DNA of 64,000 bases. It comes from Balamuthia mandrillaris (Eukaryota; Discosea; Longamoebia; Balamuthiidae). The stretch covers positions 1 through 64,000 of the forward strand of contig JAVKOQ010000171.1 in NCBI GenBank assembly GCA_031835245.1, read 5' to 3'. This document shows positions 965-47,244 of the stretch, one piece after another. The notes under the pieces are model-generated. The model saw only the letters and a list, made by a program, of their open reading frames with translations. It was not told where the DNA came from and did not search any database. The position numbers and the translations under genes were made by a program. Each line of letters begins with the position of its first letter. Positions within the stretch are counted from its first letter, which is position 1.

Positions 965-1265
965 ATTAATTATTAATAAAAGGAAGGTATCTCTGTTCGA
1001 CTCCAAGTGAAGCAACTTTTGTTTTTTTTATTTTTTATTTTTGATCTTTGTTTGAAATCTTTTCTTCATATATTTTATCATAAAAGGTGGAGATCTTCCT
1101 AGTCGACATAAATTATGGCCTCCAATAAGCATTTGTTTTAGTGATTGAAATTCATTGGTGGGTTTCTGTTGATTTATGAATTATGATTTGTTATTCAAGT
1201 CCGAAATATTCGGAGTAAAAAATGGCACCAAATGTATAACGGTTATATTTCCATATTAAGATTGT
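965..1265. other. AT-rich spacer between oxygenase and transposase
   Basis: AT-rich DNA with several runs of T and AATAAA-like signals just after the oxygenase stop (ATTAATAAAAGG near 970). It probably carries the oxygenase 3' end and the transposase promoter. I found no clear terminal inverted repeat by eye. Confidence 0.4.
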
Positions 1266-3459
1266 ATGACCTTTGAAAAAATAAGAAATAGCAGTTTGAT
1301 ATTTTCTTTTGTCAAACGTGAAAGCAGTAGCCCAAGTTCCAACAGAATGAAAACCACTTCTCATCAGCAGCACTATAAAGGTTGGAGCTTTGTTTCTTCT
1401 ATCCCTGTCAAGGATTTACCCCTATTCATGCTTGGCTTGTCCCCTGGTGCCCCGGTTGCCTTTCGATGTCGTTGGAAAACCAAAGGGATTGTTTGGTCAA
1501 AAGACGTTTCCGCCTGGAATCAGGTGAACCCGAGAGAAGGCCCAAATCTGGAGCTCAGTGTTGGAGAGGCGAAGAGGAATACCCCAGTGCTCTCTGAAGT
1601 TGTTTGGTGCAATGGCAAAATGGACTGCACCCCGCCAGCGAGTGCCAGTAACAAACGGATGAGTGCCTGCGGAAAACAGGCTCGATGGGCCATCTTTTCG
1701 GAGGATCTCCACACAGCGTGGATCTACCACACCGGGAGCCATGGAGAACGTTTCGCCCTCTACCACGATGTGCTGCCTGTTCCTGCTTTTCTTAAGAAGG
1801 AGATTCTTTCACGGGATGGATTGGAAACCAGTGCAGGAGGCCTAATCACTGCATCCTCTGCAAGGCGCCAGTTGGAAGCAGGGGCGATGTCTGGCTTGCC
1901 TGCTGCCATCCCAAAAGAGCTGCTGCCATCTGTGGCCAAGATTCAAGACATCATCGCATACGGAAGGAGGAAGCAGCGAGGTCAACAAGGGGAGCAGCCG
2001 TTAAGCCGCCAAGAGAGACTGCAACAAGCGTTGTCCCGAGAAACTATGTCCCCCTTCGTAGCTTGGCCTCGGCGGAGCCTCAGAGAGGGATACTTTCGCA
2101 CGCAGCAGCAGCTGCAAAGTAGTTGGATGATCATTCTTCTGGCGCCCCGTGCAGGAGAGCTTCTGGAAATGTGGGGCCAGGACATTGTAGGGCTGGACGC
2201 AATCTGGAAGCTTTCCAAAGCCGAGTTCCCAGTGTGGGGCTTGGTAGTTGAGGATGAACTTGGTCATCTGTGGCCAGTGGGCTTCCTTATTACCAACAAG
2301 GCCAAGGCAGAGGCGATTACCTTCTTCCTTCAGCTGCTTCAAACAAAGATGGCAGCTGACTTCCCAGACATCAACTGGAACCCCATTATAATGATGGACA
2401 AGGATAGGACAATCCGAAAGGCTGCAGTGGATGCAGGTTTCTCTTTTCTTTTGTGTGAGTTTCACGTTCAAAAACGATGGAGGCAAAAAACCTTGCGTTA
2501 TAAAGATGGTACTTTGTTGTTACCTCTTGTTTCCTTTTGTCTTTGATTTCGTCATTACTAACGCTGCGCTATGTTCCTTTTTCCTCGCAGACCAATCCGC
2601 GATCATGGCTTTGTTGAAACGTGTTCAGCATGCTCCGACAGAGGAAGAGGAAGAGGAGGCGCTTGAGCTGCTTGAATCGTCGTTCGGTGACTTTTACACC
2701 TACTTCAAAGCCAACTGGTTGTCTGCTGATTGGAAAGATGCGTGGACGACCAGAAGTCGCCCTGGTTTCAGAGAAGGCCTGTACAACACCAACAACGCGA
2801 CGGAAGCTTTATGGAAGAAGGTAGTGCGGCTGGACTTCCATCAAAAAAAGGCCAAAGCACCAGAAACTATGCAGGTTACCTTGGGAGAAACGACCCTTGC
2901 ATCGCACGACCTGGCGTTTCAGCAGAGATTGGCGGCCAAAAAGAAACCTAGACCTTCCAGGAGTATCCGCGCACTCTGGATAAGGCAGGCAAAGGGCTGG
3001 AAACTGGCACAGGAAGGCTACTTCTCTCCGATAACCAACCGTCACTTCTCCTTTGGCAAATACTACGTGTGTTTCGACTCTTGGCACTGTAGCTGCAACT
3101 TCTACCGTTGCACTGGCAAACGGTGTAAGCACATTTTTGCGCTGAGCTACCACTTTCAAAGGGAGTTCCCACGAGAAAGCTGTCCTTTTGACCATCCACA
3201 TCCTGCTTCTGTTCGAATTCCCACAGATCCTGCTGCAGTCGAAAGCGATCCCAGCGATGACAGCGACTCTGACCCTACCAACACTTCTAGTGATGATAGC
3301 GGCCGTGTCTATGAGGACACCACCAGCGATGATGACAAGGAGGAGGGCACCGATGATGATCATTGTCACCCAGATAAAGCGGAAGCAGCAGCCGCAGATA
3401 AAGATGAGGAGGAGGATGATGATGATGATGATGATGATATTATGATTATATCTTGTTAG
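1266..3459 (+). CDS. Mutator-like (MULE) transposase with SWIM zinc finger
   Basis: Two exons, 1266-2508 and 2591-3459, spliced in phase over an 82-bp intron; about 703 residues. The middle shows the MULE DDE core: DIVGLDAIWK (first D), IIMMDKDRTIRKA (second D), the CEFHVQKRW block and a glutamate in the NNATEALWKK stretch. Near the C terminus CSCNF followed by CKH gives the CxC...CxH SWIM finger typical of MULE/FAR1 proteins. The last 90 residues are an acidic Asp/Glu tail ending in a run of aspartates. Transposases of this class cut and paste DNA flanked by terminal inverted repeats. A later methionine at 1347 is an alternative start. The frame is intact on both sides of the intron, so the gene may be young or domesticated. 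Confidence 0.82.
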
Positions 3460-5980: not shown

Positions 5981-7948
5981 TTAATACTGCCTCTCAGTTG
6001 CTCGCAAAGCATCTCCTATTTGTCTAAGCGCGGCATCACCATAAAATGAAGCTACACTGACCACAGAAATAGAGGTGGAGATGGTCGATCCAGTAGAGTC
6101 ATGCTGTTGGCTTGGCACAAAACGGAACCTGCAAGCACCTGAAGGGCATTCCTCACACGAATGCCTAAAGCTGCTTTTCCTTGCTCCAAAGCGCTTTGGA
6201 GGAGGTCCTATGCTGGAGGGAGAGACCATGGCGCCGCACTTCCTGCAGTTTTGTTGCACATTTCTCTTGGAGTTGCGGTTCGTCCATTGGTGATTGCAGT
6301 TCTCACATGTATATACACCGTAGCCGAAGGCCTGTTCAAGAGGAATGGCGTCATAGCGAACTTTGCATACTTTGCAACGAGAGACGGGCTTGTGGATGGG
6401 CACCATCTTCCACCACGTTCTGTTGTTGCATTCCTCACAGCCAAACTGCCGAAGCTCTCTGTATTTCTTGTCATGATGTTGCAAGTTTTCAGCAGTGAGT
6501 GTTGCCACTTGACGGCTTCCATTTCTGTTTCTATTTCCGTTTCTATCCCCGTTTCTCTCGCCTCTGACAATGTTTCTATTTTCATTTCCGTTACTGTTGC
6601 CGTTTTGTCCTCTTCCGTTGCTCGTTGCTTCTCCATCTTCTTGATCCTCGAGCGAGTATTGTTTGCACAACGCGGAGAACTCTTGACGTTTCGCAATGGG
6701 CAAAGCGTTAATCTTTTGACGAAGACTGTCGTGCAACTGGGGCACAAGAAGCTGCACATCCTGTGCCGCGTAGTCGATCATGTCAGCGGTGAGAGGACGT
6801 CGCGTCCACAAACTCATGTTTCGATGCTTCTGCTTGAAGTGGTCCTTTGAGGTATGGATGAGGTCCTGATCTTGCACGTAGGTTGACAGAAGAAAGTTGA
6901 GGGATGGGGACTGAGGATCTCCTGTCAATACGCGGTGGGCCAACTGCACGTCGAACACGTTTCGCAGTCTCACACCATAGTCCGCTCGCAAGGCCCTGGC
7001 GTCGTGGGTACAACCATGCATCACCTTCTCCACACCTGAGTCTTCCAACAGCTGACGAAGCAGCTCCTCTCCACCAAGAGTGGAAGGAGATGTATGGAGA
7101 GCGTTGGATGGTTGGGAAAAGCCATTAACGGAAATGATGTCTTCTGCCGTTTGCACATCGAAGAGGAAGACTTGTTTGGTAAGAGGGATGGCTAGTTGGA
7201 TGAGGGTCGTGAGGCCGTGCCGGGCGCCCAAGCAGTAGCCCTCGCAGTCCACCGCCACGATACGTTCTCGCTGCTTGGTGGCTTCCCAGCGTTCGTAGAT
7301 CTGCTGCAGCACTTCTGTAGCGTCCCTTCCGTTCTCGATCAGGCGAACGCTCCATTGGATTTCGCTCTTCGCCTTCTTTATTGCTTTAATGTTCTCGTTG
7401 TTGATGGCATTGATGGAGAGGTTCTGCTGCTGCCTACGCGGCTGTTGTTCTGGTCTTCGTCTGCGAGAAAGGTATGGAGTCACTCCTCTCACGTGGATCA
7501 CCCAGTCCTCTTGTGGAAGGTAACGTTCCAGCGCATGCGAGAGCTTCTGTACTTGAAGGTCAGCGCGGTAGTCAGGCCAATACCTTCGGAGGTAGTTGCC
7601 AAGCTCGTCAAGAGCTACCGAGTCCACTTTGTCAACCTGCTCTGAAACTATCCTTTGCAGGCGTTCCGTGGGGGCTTCTTCTTGTTCCTCTGCCTCTTCT
7701 TCTTCTTCGAGTGCGTCCATAGCTACAAAGTACTCGTTAGCTCGTTTGTAGAGTAGGAAGCCCTCATGCTCCTCCATTAGCACCTGTCGTGCTACTTTGA
7801 GGAGAGAGAGGTTGTCGAGCTCGTCCCTCCACGTCGGCCAGCGCGAGTTCAGGAGGGGTCCAAGAGCAGAGAGCGAAATTGGCTCGTCTCCTCTTTCTTC
7901 CAAGACCTTGTCCACCAGACTAGCAAACTTCTTATGAGACTGCTTCAT
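5981..7948 (-). CDS. DEDDy 3'-5' exonuclease with N-terminal LOTUS-like repeats and C-terminal Shiftless-like zinc ribbon
   Basis: Intronless, 655 residues. Residues about 7-67 and 92-150 are two similar helical segments with the pattern of OST-HTH/LOTUS RNA-binding modules; this assignment is tentative. Residues about 225-420 form an EXD1/RNase D-type exonuclease with all acidic residues: D234 and E236 in VAVDCEGY, D316 in CTHDARAL, and Y393...D397 in DYAAQDV. A low-complexity Asn/Gly/Arg linker follows (445-480). The C terminus (503-610) has paired cysteines at 504/507, 525/528, 548/551 and 568/571 with WWKMVPI and PVSRCKVC blocks, resembling the zinc-binding domain of the antiviral frameshift inhibitor Shiftless (SHFL). 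The likely role is RNA 3'-end trimming or decay, guided by the flanking RNA-binding modules. I know of no gene with this combination. Confidence 0.8.
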   Translation of the reverse strand: MKQSHKKFASLVDKVLEERGDEPISLSALGPLLNSRWPTWRDELDNLSLLKVARQVLMEEHEGFLLYKRANEYFVAMDALEEEEEAEEQEEAPTERLQRIVSEQVDKVDSVALDELGNYLRRYWPDYRADLQVQKLSHALERYLPQEDWVIHVRGVTPYLSRRRRPEQQPRRQQQNLSINAINNENIKAIKKAKSEIQWSVRLIENGRDATEVLQQIYERWEATKQRERIVAVDCEGYCLGARHGLTTLIQLAIPLTKQVFLFDVQTAEDIISVNGFSQPSNALHTSPSTLGGEELLRQLLEDSGVEKVMHGCTHDARALRADYGVRLRNVFDVQLAHRVLTGDPQSPSLNFLLSTYVQDQDLIHTSKDHFKQKHRNMSLWTRRPLTADMIDYAAQDVQLLVPQLHDSLRQKINALPIAKRQEFSALCKQYSLEDQEDGEATSNGRGQNGNSNGNENRNIVRGERNGDRNGNRNRNGSRQVATLTAENLQHHDKKYRELRQFGCEECNNRTWWKMVPIHKPVSRCKVCKVRYDAIPLEQAFGYGVYTCENCNHQWTNRNSKRNVQQNCRKCGAMVSPSSIGPPPKRFGARKSSFRHSCEECPSGACRFRFVPSQQHDSTGSTISTSISVVSVASFYGDAALRQIGDALRATERQY

Positions 7949-8172: not shown

Positions 8173-8691
8173 TCATGCTTTGCTGGCAAAGTCGTCCATC
8201 AGCTGGACCAGCTTTCGGAGGTGTTCTTCGTTGCGTGCGCCTTCCTCCCGCAGCTCCTCTCGCACTCGTTCCAGAATGATGCCGTTCCAATAGGCCCAAA
8301 ACTCAAAGCCAAAAGCCTCGATGGGTCCTTCGGTGTTAACGAGCACTTTGCGGAGGTCCTCGTTCTGCTCGAACTTGGCGTAGTTGGCCTCATACATGAC
8401 TTGCACCTTGACCTTCTCCCAGTCCTCGCGGAGGCGCCTCTCGCGAGTTTGTCCGAGGCTCCACAGCTGGTTCCCGTCGGTATGGGCCATGATGGTTTCC
8501 TGATATTGAGGGTCGGTGCCTTCAAACTTCATGGCTTGAAAGTACTGTTCACAACTGATATATTTGCGGCCGTTCACAACGAACTTGCGTTGCAAGAAGT
8601 TGTCCATCTCGTCGTAATACGCACCACCGCACTTGCAAGGTCCGCCCATATTGCTGTTGTGTTGATTGCTTTTTTTTTCCTTCTTCTCCAA
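8173..8691 (-). CDS. NADAR-domain protein (YbiA/DUF1768 family)
   Basis: Intronless, 172 residues, or 158 if the second methionine (8649, MGGPCKCGG) is used. Nearly the whole protein is a NADAR domain: an FLQRKFVVNG strand, the CEQYFQAMKFEG helix with the conserved glutamate, a middle Trp/Glu helix (RLREDWEKVK) with VMYEANYAKF, and the closing FWAYWNGIILERVRE segment. NADAR proteins are N-glycosidases acting on riboflavin intermediates or ADP-ribose-type substrates, and are scattered among bacteria, viruses and protists. The N terminus adds a CKCGG motif. It shares a 325-bp head-to-head promoter with the alpha/beta hydrolase. Patchy distribution of the family makes lateral origin possible. 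Confidence 0.85.
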   Translation of the reverse strand: MEKKEKKSNQHNSNMGGPCKCGGAYYDEMDNFLQRKFVVNGRKYISCEQYFQAMKFEGTDPQYQETIMAHTDGNQLWSLGQTRERRLREDWEKVKVQVMYEANYAKFEQNEDLRKVLVNTEGPIEAFGFEFWAYWNGIILERVREELREEGARNEEHLRKLVQLMDDFASKA

Positions 8692-19623: not shown

Positions 19624-22600
19624 ATGTCCGAGAAAGAAGGCAAGAAAAAGCGATCGTTGTCCAAGAGCAAGAAGGACAAGAAGGAAGAGCTCGAAAACGG
19701 CAAGCATGACGCTGAGGATCCTCAGACTAACGACAAGGTTTGTTTTCTGGTCTTTCGCTATTTTTTTTTTGTGTGTGTTTTTTTTTTGCCGGATTATTTT
19801 ATCTTTTTTTTCATCGCAAGCGAAATCAAATCCAACTCACTCACTCACATTTGCCCATACAAAAAAAGGCGGCCAAAAAGGAGAAAGTAAAAAGTCCGAA
19901 AGGCGGAAAGCGAAAAGGCACCAAGGAGGAGGAGAAAGTGGAGGATGTGACTCCCGAGAAGCAGAAAGAGAAAGCCGAAGAGGAGCACCAGAAAGAAGCG
20001 GAGGAAGTGAAGAAGGAGGAAAAAGAGATCAAGTCCTCGTCTGAAGATGAAGAAAAGAAAGAGGAAGCCGCTGAGGTGAAGGACGAAGAGAAGGAGGAGA
20101 AGAAGGATGATGACAAAGAAGAGAAGAAGGAAGAAAAAGAGAAGAAAGAGGACGATGATGACTCTTCCTCGTCTTCTTCAGATGATGAAGATAAAGAGAA
20201 AGGCGACAAGAAAGAAGAACATGAAGAGAAGGAGGAAAAAGAGGAGAAGGGAGAAAAGAAAGAGAAAACAAAGAAAGGAAGCGGACATCACGAGAAAGAA
20301 GAAAAGAAGGAAGAAAAGGAAGAACATCCCAAAGAGTTGAGCAAACAGGAAAAGAAGGAGCTGGAAAGGAAGAAGAAGGAGGAAGCTGCCAAGAAGAAGA
20401 AAGAAGAACAGGAGAGAAAGAAGAAGGAAAAGGAGGAAGCCGCTAGAAAGAAGAAAGAAGAACAGGAGAGAAAGAAGAAGGAAAGGGAGGAAGCTGCCAG
20501 AAAGAAGAAAGAAGAACAGGAAAAGAAGAAGAAGGAAAAGGAGAAGAAGACACCCAAGTCTCCTGGAAAGCAACGCAAAGGAACAGCCGAAAAAGAAGAA
20601 AAGAAGGAAGTAGAGAAGGAAGGGAAGGACGAAGACAAGGAAGAAAAGGAGGAGAAAGAAGAAAAGGAGGAGAAAGAAGAAAAGGAGGAGAAAGAAGAAA
20701 AGGAGGAGAAGGAAGAAGAAAAATCCGTTGAGGTAGAGAAGAAAGAAGGAGAAGAGAAGAAGGAAGAAGAGCAAGAGAAGGAAGAAGAAAAGAAAGAGGA
20801 TGAAGAAGAGAAGGAAAAGAAAGAGGAAGAGGAGGAGAAAGAGGAGGAAAAGAAGCAGGAAGAGCATAAGGAGGAAGAAAAGAAGGAAGACGTTGTAGAA
20901 GAAAAGAAAGAGGTAGAAGAAGTTGCAGCTGCGTCATCATCGGAAGAAGGCGAAAAGAAAGAAGAGGAAAAGGAGGAAAAGGAGGAAGAACCAAAAGTGG
21001 AAGAAAAGAAAGAGGAAGAAGAGAAGGCTGCCCCTGTTGTTGCTGCCGCGGTAACGGAAGAAAAAGACGACAAAGAAAAGGAAGAGAAGGACAAAAAAGA
21101 AGACAAAGAAGACGACAGTTCCAGCTCTGACAGTGACCACGAAAAAGAGAAAGACGAGAAGAAAGAAGGTGAAGCCGAAAAGAAGGAGGATGAAGAGCAC
21201 AAAGAAGAGAAAGACAACGACAAGAAGGAAAAAGAGAAAGGAAAAGAAACACCGACGAAGAAGTCAAAGAAAGGAGCTGCCGACGAGAACCCCATCTCTC
21301 CGCGATCCAAGAAACGAACCGGAAGCATCATTCAACTGGCCAAGAAGTTGATCAAAGACAAAGAAAAGGACAAAGACGACCATCATCACACGAGTCCCCC
21401 AGAGACCAGAAAGGAGAAAGAGAAAGCGGAAAAGAAGAAGGAGAAGGAACCGACTTCTCCTTTGAGCCCTCGTAGCGGTGGTGGCGTTTTCGGACGACTG
21501 AAAGGAGGAAAGAAGAAAGAGGAAGCTGCTAAAGAAAAGAAGAAAAAGGAGGAACACCACGATGAAAAGAAAGAGAAGGAAGACAAGAAGAAGAAAGAGA
21601 AGGTAGAAGAGAAGGAACATAAAGAAGAAAAGAAAGAAGACGAAGTCAAGGAGGAGGCCGAAAAGAACAACGATGAGAAGGAGCCCAAGGCAGAAGACAA
21701 GAAGGAGGGAGAGGAGAAAGAGGAGAAGAAGGAGGAGAAAGAAGAAAAGAAAGAGGAGGATGAAAGCAGCAGCGAAAGCGAGAACGAAAAGGAAGAAGAG
21801 AGCAAAGAAGCCGAACCTGTTGCTGTTACCACTGAATCAACCGAAACGAAAGAAGAATCAAAAGAGGAACAGCCGGAAGAGAAAGAGAAGGAAGAAAAGG
21901 AGGTGAAGGAAGGAGAGAAAGAAGCAAAGGCCGAAGAAGAGAAGCAGGAAGAATCGGACGACAAAGAAACAGAGAAAGAAAATAAAGAGGAAGTAAAGGA
22001 AAAGAAAGAAGAAGAGAAGGAAGAGGAGGGAGAGAAGGAAGAGAAAGAAAAGGAGGAAGAAAAGGAAAAGAAAGAAGACGAAGAGGAACATCCTAAAGAA
22101 GAAAAGGCTGGAAAGAAAGATAAGAAGCACGACAAGAAGGAAGAGCACGGAAAGAAAGGAGGAGACAAAGAAGCAGCCAAGAAGAAGAAAGAAGAGCAGG
22201 AACGAAAGAAGAAGGAAGAACAAGAAAGGAAGAAGCGCGAGAAAGAGGAAGCCGCAAAGAAGAAGAAGGAAGAACAAGAAAGGAAGAAGCGCGAGAAAGA
22301 GGAAGCTGCTAAGAAGAAGAAGGAAGAACAAGAAAGGAAGAAGAAGGAAAAAGAAGAAGCCAAGAAGAAGAAGGAAGAAGCTGCTAAGTCTCCGAGAGAA
22401 AACGAAGAGAAGAAACGAAAGAGGACTGGTTCGAAGAAAGAAACTGCAAAGGACAAAACGGAACGTCAAGAAAAGAACGAAAAGGTAAAGGAGGAGGAGA
22501 AAGAAAAGGAACACGAGAACGAAGAGAAAGATAAGGAGGAAGAGCATCACGAGAAAGAGAAGGAAGAGCACCACGACAAAGAAAAGAAGGAAGAAGAGCA

Positions 22601-22799
22601 TCATGAGGACAAAGAAAAGAAGGAAGAAAAGAAGGAAGAAGAGCACCATGAGGACGAAGAAAAGAAGGAAGAAGATCACCATGAGAAAGCAAAGAAAGAA
22701 GAACATGACGAGAAAGACAAGAAAGAGCACGACCACGATGAGAAAGAAGATAAGAAGGATGAGTCATCATCTTCATCTTCTAGCGATGAATCCGACTAA
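19624..22799 (+). CDS. Lys/Glu-rich polyampholyte protein, 1014 residues
   Basis: Two exons, 19624-19737 and 19869-22799, in phase 0. More than two thirds of residues are Lys or Glu. ERKKKEKEEA-type segments alternate charge with the i to i+4 spacing of stable single alpha-helices, mainly residues about 200-290 and 800-890. Between them lie acidic serine clusters (DDSSSSSSSD, DDSSSSDSD, DESSSES) that are strong CK2-type sites, and SP-rich islands (SPRSKKRTGS, SPLSPRSGGG). There is no enzyme domain, signal peptide or membrane span. Because low-complexity composition opens other frames too, the case for coding rests on one uninterrupted 977-codon frame, a clean intron and an ordinary N terminus. 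A cytoskeletal, chromatin or spacer role is plausible but unproven. Confidence 0.78.
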
Positions 22800-45606: not shown

Positions 45607-47244
45607 ATGATGTCAGGGTATTATTCTCTCGTTTCCTTTTTTTCCCATCTCTTTGATTTTTTTACCTCTTCTCCAAATTCCTTTTCCTTCCATCAATCTG
45701 CCGATTGCCCAAATCATCTTTTTTTTCTTCCTTTCTTTTTTGTGTTTAGTTGACGGTTCCCCCTGACCTTTTTCACCTACTTACATAGCACCCAAGAAGA
45801 TTTCAGCTATGACGGCAGTGACCAGATGAACAAAGGCAAGTCTGGGGAGAACATGCCCTCTCCCGTCGTTCACGTGAGGAACCTCCCTCAAGACTGCTCT
45901 GAGCAGGAGATCACCGCCATTGCCTGTCCCTTTGGCAGGGTGGAGCGCGTGTTCATGCTGAAGGGCAAGAACCAGGCCTTTGTGCAGATGCAGGATCTGC
46001 AGACTGCCACCGCCCTCGTCCAGTACTACTCCCAAGTGCAGGGCAACATTCGCGGCAGGCCCTGCTACTTCCAGTACTCGAACCGCAATGAGATCACCAC
46101 TACGCCAGAGGATGAGCAGCCCAACCACATCCTCTTGGTCAGTGTGCTGAACCTCGCCTACCCCGTCACCATCGACACCCTCTACCAGGTCTTCTCCAAG
46201 TTTGGCGCCATTGTCCGCATCATCATCTTTAACAAGAAGGGCTTCCAAGCGCTGGTCGAGTTTGCCGACAAGTCCGCCGCCCAGAATGCCCGTGAGTCCC
46301 TCGACGGCCAAAACATCTACAGTGGCTGCTGCACCCTCAGCATCAAATACTCTCGCCTGCCTACCCTCACCGTGCGCTACAACAATGACAAGACGCGCGA
46401 CTTTACCAACCCCTCACTCCCCTCTGGCGGTGATCCCTCTGGCGGACCCTCTGCCGCTGGCCCCGCTGGTGCCGCCGGCATGGGTCCCGCCGGCATGTTC
46501 CCTGACAGCAACCCCTACGCCCCGTACGGCTATCCCCCTCAGTATGCTGCGGCTGCTAAGACGGCTGCCGCTGGTATGGGTCCTGCCGGCATGGCTATGG
46601 GAGCCATGCGCATGCCTGGCATGCCTCACGCTGCTGGCATGGGCATGGGCGGTCCCACTGTCCTCATCGTCAGCAACTTGACGCCGGAACGCATCCTCCC
46701 CGACCACATCTTTACTCTCTTTGGTGTCTACGGAGACGTCCTTCGCGTGAAGATCCTCTACAACAAGCCTGACACTGCCCTCGTCCAGTTTGCCTCCCCT
46801 CATGGCGCCGAGACGGCCCTCTCTCACCTGAACGGCCTGCCCTTGCATGGCAAGAATCTCCTCATTAACTTCTCCAAGCACAACTCCATCTCCCTGCCTC
46901 GCGATGCCCAGCAGGAGGGATCTCACCTCACCAAGGACTACTCTGGTTCTCCTCTCCACCGCTACAAGGTGCAGGGCAGCAAGAACTATCACCACATTTG
47001 CTCGCCCAGCCCCGTCCTTCACATCTCCAACATCCCCATCGCGGCCACGGAGGAAGAAGTCAAGGCCCCCTTTTCCCAGTTTGGCACCGTCACTGGCTTC
47101 AAGTTCTTCAGCAAGGACAAGAGGATGGCCCTCTTGGAGATGAGCAGCTTGGACGAGGCGGTGGAGGCCCTGATGAACCTGCACGACTACTTGTTGGGGG
47201 ATCACAACCTCCGCGTCTCCTTCTCCAAGTCCCAACTTCAGTAA
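45607..47244 (+). CDS. PTBP1: Polypyrimidine tract-binding protein, four RRMs
   Basis: Two coding exons: a minute first one of 11 nt (45607-45617, ATGATGTCAGG) and 45789-47244; 488 residues. The join gives MMSGTQEDFSYDGSDQM before RRM1. RRM1 (about 27-100, VVHVRNLP ... GKNQAFVQM), RRM2 (about 115-190, KGFQALVEF), a Met/Gly/Ala-rich linker (about 205-285), RRM3 (VLIVSNLTPERILPDHIFTLFGVYGDV ... TALVQFAS) and RRM4 (VLHISNIP ... RMALLEMSS) follow the PTB/hnRNP L order and spacing. It binds CU-rich RNA to control splicing, IRES use and 3' processing. Codon use is more GC-rich than in neighbouring genes, as expected of a highly expressed gene, and the whole RRM region has no introns. Confidence 0.95.

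Follow-up and report, generated by a model that had tools for sequence, protein, structure and literature searches.

What kind of protein carries an exonuclease domain and a Shiftless-like zinc ribbon in a single chain, is the junction between the two genuine, and what might such a protein do? These questions are raised by an open reading frame from a 64,000-nucleotide stretch of Balamuthia mandrillaris DNA (GenBank assembly GCA_031835245.1, contig JAVKOQ010000171.1, positions 1 to 64,000; hereafter the window, GC content 46.3%), which an initial annotation, made from the sequence alone, described as an exonuclease fused to a Shiftless-like zinc ribbon and LOTUS-like repeats. The frame occupies positions 5981-7948 of the minus strand and runs through 655 codons from ATG to stop with no internal stop; another stop, 18 bases ahead of the ATG, bounds it on the upstream side. 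Pfam recognises both the exonuclease and the Shiftless (SHFL) domain within this one 655-residue frame, as the annotation had it, and the layout of the encoded protein (P0001 among the relatives discussed below) is that of an Egalitarian-type body with the SHFL zinc core at its end. Egalitarian serves mRNA transport in flies, and Shiftless is an antiviral protein of animals.

The middle of the protein, residues 199-413 (6710..7354, minus strand, as for every feature of this gene), is an Egalitarian-type DEDDy 3'-5' exonuclease domain. Pfam PF01612 (DNA_pol_A_exo1) matches residues 228-413 (80.4 bits, cut-off 23.6, E 1.8e-22), and alignment places within this match all five of the residues that we take to form the DEDDy motif, an assignment that agrees with the Pfam result: D234 and E236 in DCE (7241..7249), D316 (7001..7003), and Y393 and D397 in YAAQD (6758..6772). 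The earlier claim of a complete catalytic set is therefore borne out, and equivalents of these residues are also kept in P0008 and in the Andalucia, sea-urchin and abalone relatives. Of 26 sequences in the Protein Data Bank (PDB) that matched, the best is Egalitarian (9uju, residues 199-434, E 2.1e-20), with the next natural DEDDy enzyme, human exosome component 10, far behind (E 2.4e-5); a Foldseek search with the whole model likewise puts Egalitarian at the top. Other PF01612 matches are present in the genome (64.8 Mb in 775 contigs were searched), the most similar being L004 (C17, 64 bits) and L006 (C31, 53 bits). At L004:692-2916 an exonuclease of the same type is followed by a P-loop ATPase region that weakly resembles several families, all under cut-off (Spore_III_AA at E 0.004), and the stretch ahead of the exonuclease looks winged-helix-like by eye; this is possibly another ED-exonuclease fusion.

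Beyond the exonuclease and an Asn/Gly/Arg-rich low-complexity linker of low model confidence (residues 436-480, 6509..6643) lies the Shiftless core, residues 484-612 (6113..6499), which comprises an LTxENL helix, four CxxC pairs and C598/C601/C606. The C terminus is matched both by profile, Pfam PF15135 (UPF0515, Shiftless), which scores 96.6 bits over residues 474-632 (cut-off 29.8, E 2.1e-27), and by the sequence of human SHFL (9kbo, residues 500-603, E 2.4e-15), which ranked behind two Egalitarian entries in the PDB search. The likeness to Shiftless first seen in the C-terminal cysteine pairs and the WWKMVP and PVSRC blocks holds, since these blocks and the cysteine pairs at residues 504-528 all fall inside the UPF0515 match, and the pairs C504/C507, C525/C528, C548/C551 and C568/C571 are invariant in all ten aligned sequences. 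The aligned stretch takes in human SHFL residues 164-199, the RAA, which is required for antiviral activity (PMC11055011, PMC9324250). A six-frame search of the genome returned one Shiftless-type domain, the window's own.

The resemblance continues past the zinc core. Residues 613-628 (6065..6112) correspond in alignment to the SHFL linker and contain HDSTGSTISTSIS; human SHFL residues 240-256 align with residues 612-628, a piece that scores 1.6 bits when taken alone, and the HxSxGST linker motif is aligned across all ten sequences of the Shiftless alignment. Among 94 SHFL-domain proteins it was found in 73 and not in the other 21, a share perhaps flattered because the query that gathered these proteins itself contained the motif, and the search pattern was met in 0.1% of shuffled sequences. 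Within the linker T622 and T625 align with human T250 and T253, which are phosphorylated by CK1 and required for inhibition of programmed -1 ribosomal frameshifting (-1PRF) and for antiviral activity, T250 being required for polysome association as well (PMC12724340). A helix predicted with low confidence at residues 638-654 (5987..6037) sits where SHFL has its C-terminal helix (PMC11055011). The N-terminal helical domain of SHFL (human residues 1-103) is absent from the window protein and only its last helix, LTxENL, is shared, the match starting at position 78 of the Pfam model and position 108 of human SHFL. We count the protein as one that carries the SHFL core and not as a Shiftless.

Residues 1-164 model as two winged helices (pLDDT 85), an Egalitarian ED1-like domain at residues 1-80 (7709..7948) and an ED2-like, or LOTUS-like, domain at residues 90-164 (7457..7681). 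When structures were aligned to this model with VIA-align, Egalitarian ED1-ED2 came out on top, narrowly ahead of the TDRD5 LOTUS domain in second place, and single LOTUS domains fitted the second domain only; the N terminus thus models as a winged helix and not as some other fold. A Foldseek search with just the N-terminal model found no match at E <= 0.001, and its ranking placed ESCRT-II first and Egalitarian at ranks 4, 9, 10, 12, 14 and lower. We dropped a LOTUS identity by sequence, as the Pfam, PDB, repeat-profile and genome searches gave no LOTUS match: OST-HTH (PF12872) was unlisted by Pfam for the whole protein at E up to 10, a range in which HMMER filters drop most matches above about 0.1; a six-frame search of the genome with its profile, at E up to 1, was empty; PDB sequences searched with the N terminus by itself gave no match at E up to 10; and a profile of eight aligned repeats returned eight rows (best E 0.005), of which most were designed helical proteins and none was a LOTUS domain. 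The assignment consequently stands on fold and domain order. Of the LOTUS-like repeats proposed at the outset, then, the repeats and a modelled winged-helix fold remain, and a match to the OST-HTH profile does not. L33, W37 and P38 are invariant across the eight repeats, although two near-identical proteins supply four of these, and the pair aligns with the N terminus of the relative P0006 at 32% over 181 columns (E 1e-24).

Whether the junction is genuine can be judged from the relatives. A search covering candidate lengths of about 293 to 933 residues returned 94 proteins with a Shiftless domain, and three of these, the window protein, P0007 and P0008, carry an exonuclease as well by Pfam, so that the fusion recurs beyond the B. 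mandrillaris genome. P0007 is ANDGO_02446 of the jakobid Andalucia godoyi, named '3'5' exonuclease domain containing protein' in EukProt. P0006, P0013 and P0014 have the N-terminal pair and the Shiftless domain without the exonuclease, and P0015 has the Shiftless domain with no further Pfam domain. An artefact of the gene model is unlikely because both layouts recur in other proteins, and the specific suggestion that an error of assembly or of the open frame has joined two adjacent genes we regard as highly improbable: the fusion is known here solely from a genomic open frame, but 655 codons stay open in one frame, the order exonuclease-linker-SHFL is found in two further proteins, of which P0007 belongs to a named EukProt gene set, and the N-terminal pair stands ahead of SHFL in three more.

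Other layouts were seen among the same relatives. The domain is joined to ZU5 in P0016, P0036, P0075 and P0081, and P0009-P0012 have three or four tandem Shiftless-type stretches per protein. In P0052 (749 residues) a SIR2-like domain (27.2 bits, cut-off 24.5) is fused to a near-complete Shiftless domain; SIR2-like domains are common in immune effectors, and P0052 could be an effector that consumes NAD and uses its Shiftless domain as a sensor. These varied layouts make the Shiftless core look like a mobile module, either older than animals or moved between eukaryotes. A viral or prokaryotic source was also considered and set aside, no relative having been confirmed in pattern scans of IMG/VR (5 pattern hits, none confirmed) or of the GTDB genomes (61 pattern hits, none confirmed), scans that rely on short conserved stretches and that distant copies could escape.

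The history of the fusion is less easily read. In a tree of the SHFL domain (92 of the 94 sequences, two short matches having been dropped; 121 columns; bootstrap unsettled) P0001, P0006, P0007, P0008, P0013, P0014 and P0015 lie on one side of a branch (99/97), and the three exonuclease carriers do not form a group within these seven, the best tree giving two changes where one is possible. Nor do the carriers group in a nine-row tree of the exonuclease, although forcing them together is not rejected (p-AU 0.07). The window exonuclease scores 108 bits against the sea-urchin sequence, 82-89 against abalone, 73 against P0008 and 62 against Andalucia, and the Andalucia exonuclease in turn gives 72 bits to L004 of the window genome as against 60 to the window exonuclease. 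These results are compatible with one fusion event or with two.

As to function, we give a probability of about one half to a three-module RNA-processing protein, in which a clamp for structured RNA, a tie to ribosomes or mRNA through the SHFL core, and 3'-5' degradation or trimming are combined. The two winged helices and the exonuclease body would grip a structured (hairpin) RNA in the manner of Egalitarian; the SHFL core, with its zinc ribbons and a linker whose CK1-type threonines may be phosphorylated, would associate the protein with ribosomes or their mRNA; and the exonuclease, having all DEDDy residues, would degrade or trim the bound RNA from 3' to 5', in what may amount to surveillance of structured or foreign RNA. 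By analogy the most likely role is the recognition of structured RNA, possibly during translation, with optional 3'-5' degradation, because the Egalitarian structure shows a stem-loop held by ED1, ED2, the exonuclease domain and the XAD (PMC13186709), because SHFL requires its cysteines for binding ribosomes and frameshift RNA, a cysteine mutant nonetheless restricting HIV-1 infectivity (PMC11055011), and because SHFL co-precipitates with MOV10 and UPF1, in part RNA-dependently, and co-localises with XRN1 in P bodies (PMC5309953).

Two other roles have to be set against this one. The protein might be a non-catalytic adaptor whose exonuclease domain is an RNA-holding platform, and which localises structured mRNAs, stores them or represses their translation. 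We think this possible, if somewhat unlikely: the exonuclease-homology domain of Egalitarian binds an RNA from which its putative catalytic residues, reported to be dispensable for function, are some 15 A distant (PMC13186709), and P0006, P0013 and P0014 retain the N-terminal pair and SHFL without any exonuclease, whereas the DEDDy residues are all kept here and in the diverged exonucleases of Andalucia and P0008, as they are, likewise, in Egalitarian. A dedicated antiviral or anti-retroelement effector, along the lines of the antiviral role raised by the initial annotation, would have SHFL spot frameshifting or structured foreign RNA, including that of retroelements, and the nuclease destroy it. 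SHFL does restrict DNA, RNA and retroviruses (PMC9230503, PMC5309953), and the SIR2-like fusion of P0052 fits such a role; yet SHFL bound a random-structure control RNA too, albeit with a preference for the HIV frameshift element (PMC9324250), the title of one paper places it in ribosome stress surveillance (PMC10747187), and a Pfam scan of 14 of the window's open frames brought out no conspicuous immune gene. A dedicated defence function is accordingly doubtful, and the three-module RNA-processing protein is the reading that we prefer.

The surroundings of the gene may be described briefly. A NADAR-domain open frame (Pfam E 4e-19) lies just upstream of the fusion gene on the same strand at 8173-8691(-). 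At 1260-2546(+) an open frame has a weak MULE transposase match under cut-off (E 3e-5), and at 19731-22799(+) a frame of 1022 residues abounds in purine repeats (units of 39-75 bases) and gave no match in a Pfam scan at E up to 0.001. A frame of 496 residues at 45754-47244(+) has four RRM_1 stretches and presumably resembles polypyrimidine-tract-binding protein.

Neither the fusion nor Shiftless in protists was described among the matches listed in a literature search lying outside preprints and most subscription journals, and the sole match to name both 'Shiftless' and 'Egalitarian' deals, to judge by its title, with another subject. The joined architecture is therefore undescribed as far as searched, and the anatomical case for it is strong. 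SHFL homologues have been named in hemichordates and echinoderms (PMC5309953); here the zinc core and the positions of the two essential threonines are present outside animals, tied to an exonuclease and an Egalitarian-type clamp. This suggests a pre-animal origin for the Shiftless core and a link to RNA processing. The fusion hints that the SHFL module engages structured, translated RNA destined for processing, it bridges the fields of mRNA localisation and antiviral defence, and it offers a natural protein in which RNA sensing and cleavage could be studied together. One might go further, though we consider it unlikely, and suppose that the core was an ancient sensor of ribosomes or structured RNA with a nuclease and clamp of its own, whose parts animals have split. 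Egalitarian would then have retained the clamp and the exonuclease, with catalysis unneeded, Shiftless would have retained the sensor and recruit decay factors in trans, and the window protein would be the undivided surveillance enzyme, with a CK1 switch at the same threonines.

Set beside known systems, the protein shares with Drosophila Egalitarian (Egl; PDB 9rvy, 9uju) a DEDDy exonuclease-homology domain and, ahead of it, what the model shows as a tandem of probable LOTUS-like winged helices. It differs in that two EDs are found where Egl has three, and in its C-terminal SHFL core, to which the Egl chain of the PDB search shows no match. The XAD, the tetrahelical domain after the exonuclease domain of Egl, is not clearly present: the sequence alignment ends at Egl 742, and a low-confidence model has helices at residues 404-436. 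In the basic stretch Egl 682-687, K682, Q683 and R686 are identical to K372, Q373 and R376, with K374 and H375 between, and R687 is opposite a gap; K657 and K659 are not kept, so that R686 alone survives of the four mutated Egl exonuclease-domain residues. That order of LOTUS-like EDs and exonuclease-homology domain is the published one for Egl (PMC13186709). From the LOTUS/OST-HTH proteins TDRD5, TDRD7, MARF1 and Oskar the window protein differs in having no PF12872 sequence match in the searches described above. With Shiftless (SHFL, C19orf66, UPF0515) it has in common the four-CxxC zinc core, the aligned RAA region, the HxSxGST linker and the predicted C-terminal helix; it lacks the N-terminal helical domain, and the core is borne by an exonuclease protein. 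P0007 and P0008 likewise have an exonuclease with DEDDy intact, a linker and an SHFL core and are 51-55% identical in the SHFL domain, but merely 28-30% in the exonuclease, and their N termini of about 100 residues do not align in sequence with the winged-helix pair. The statement that no described protein has this layout must consequently be narrowed: the first two thirds have their precedent in Egalitarian, and it is the SHFL core at the end that is new.
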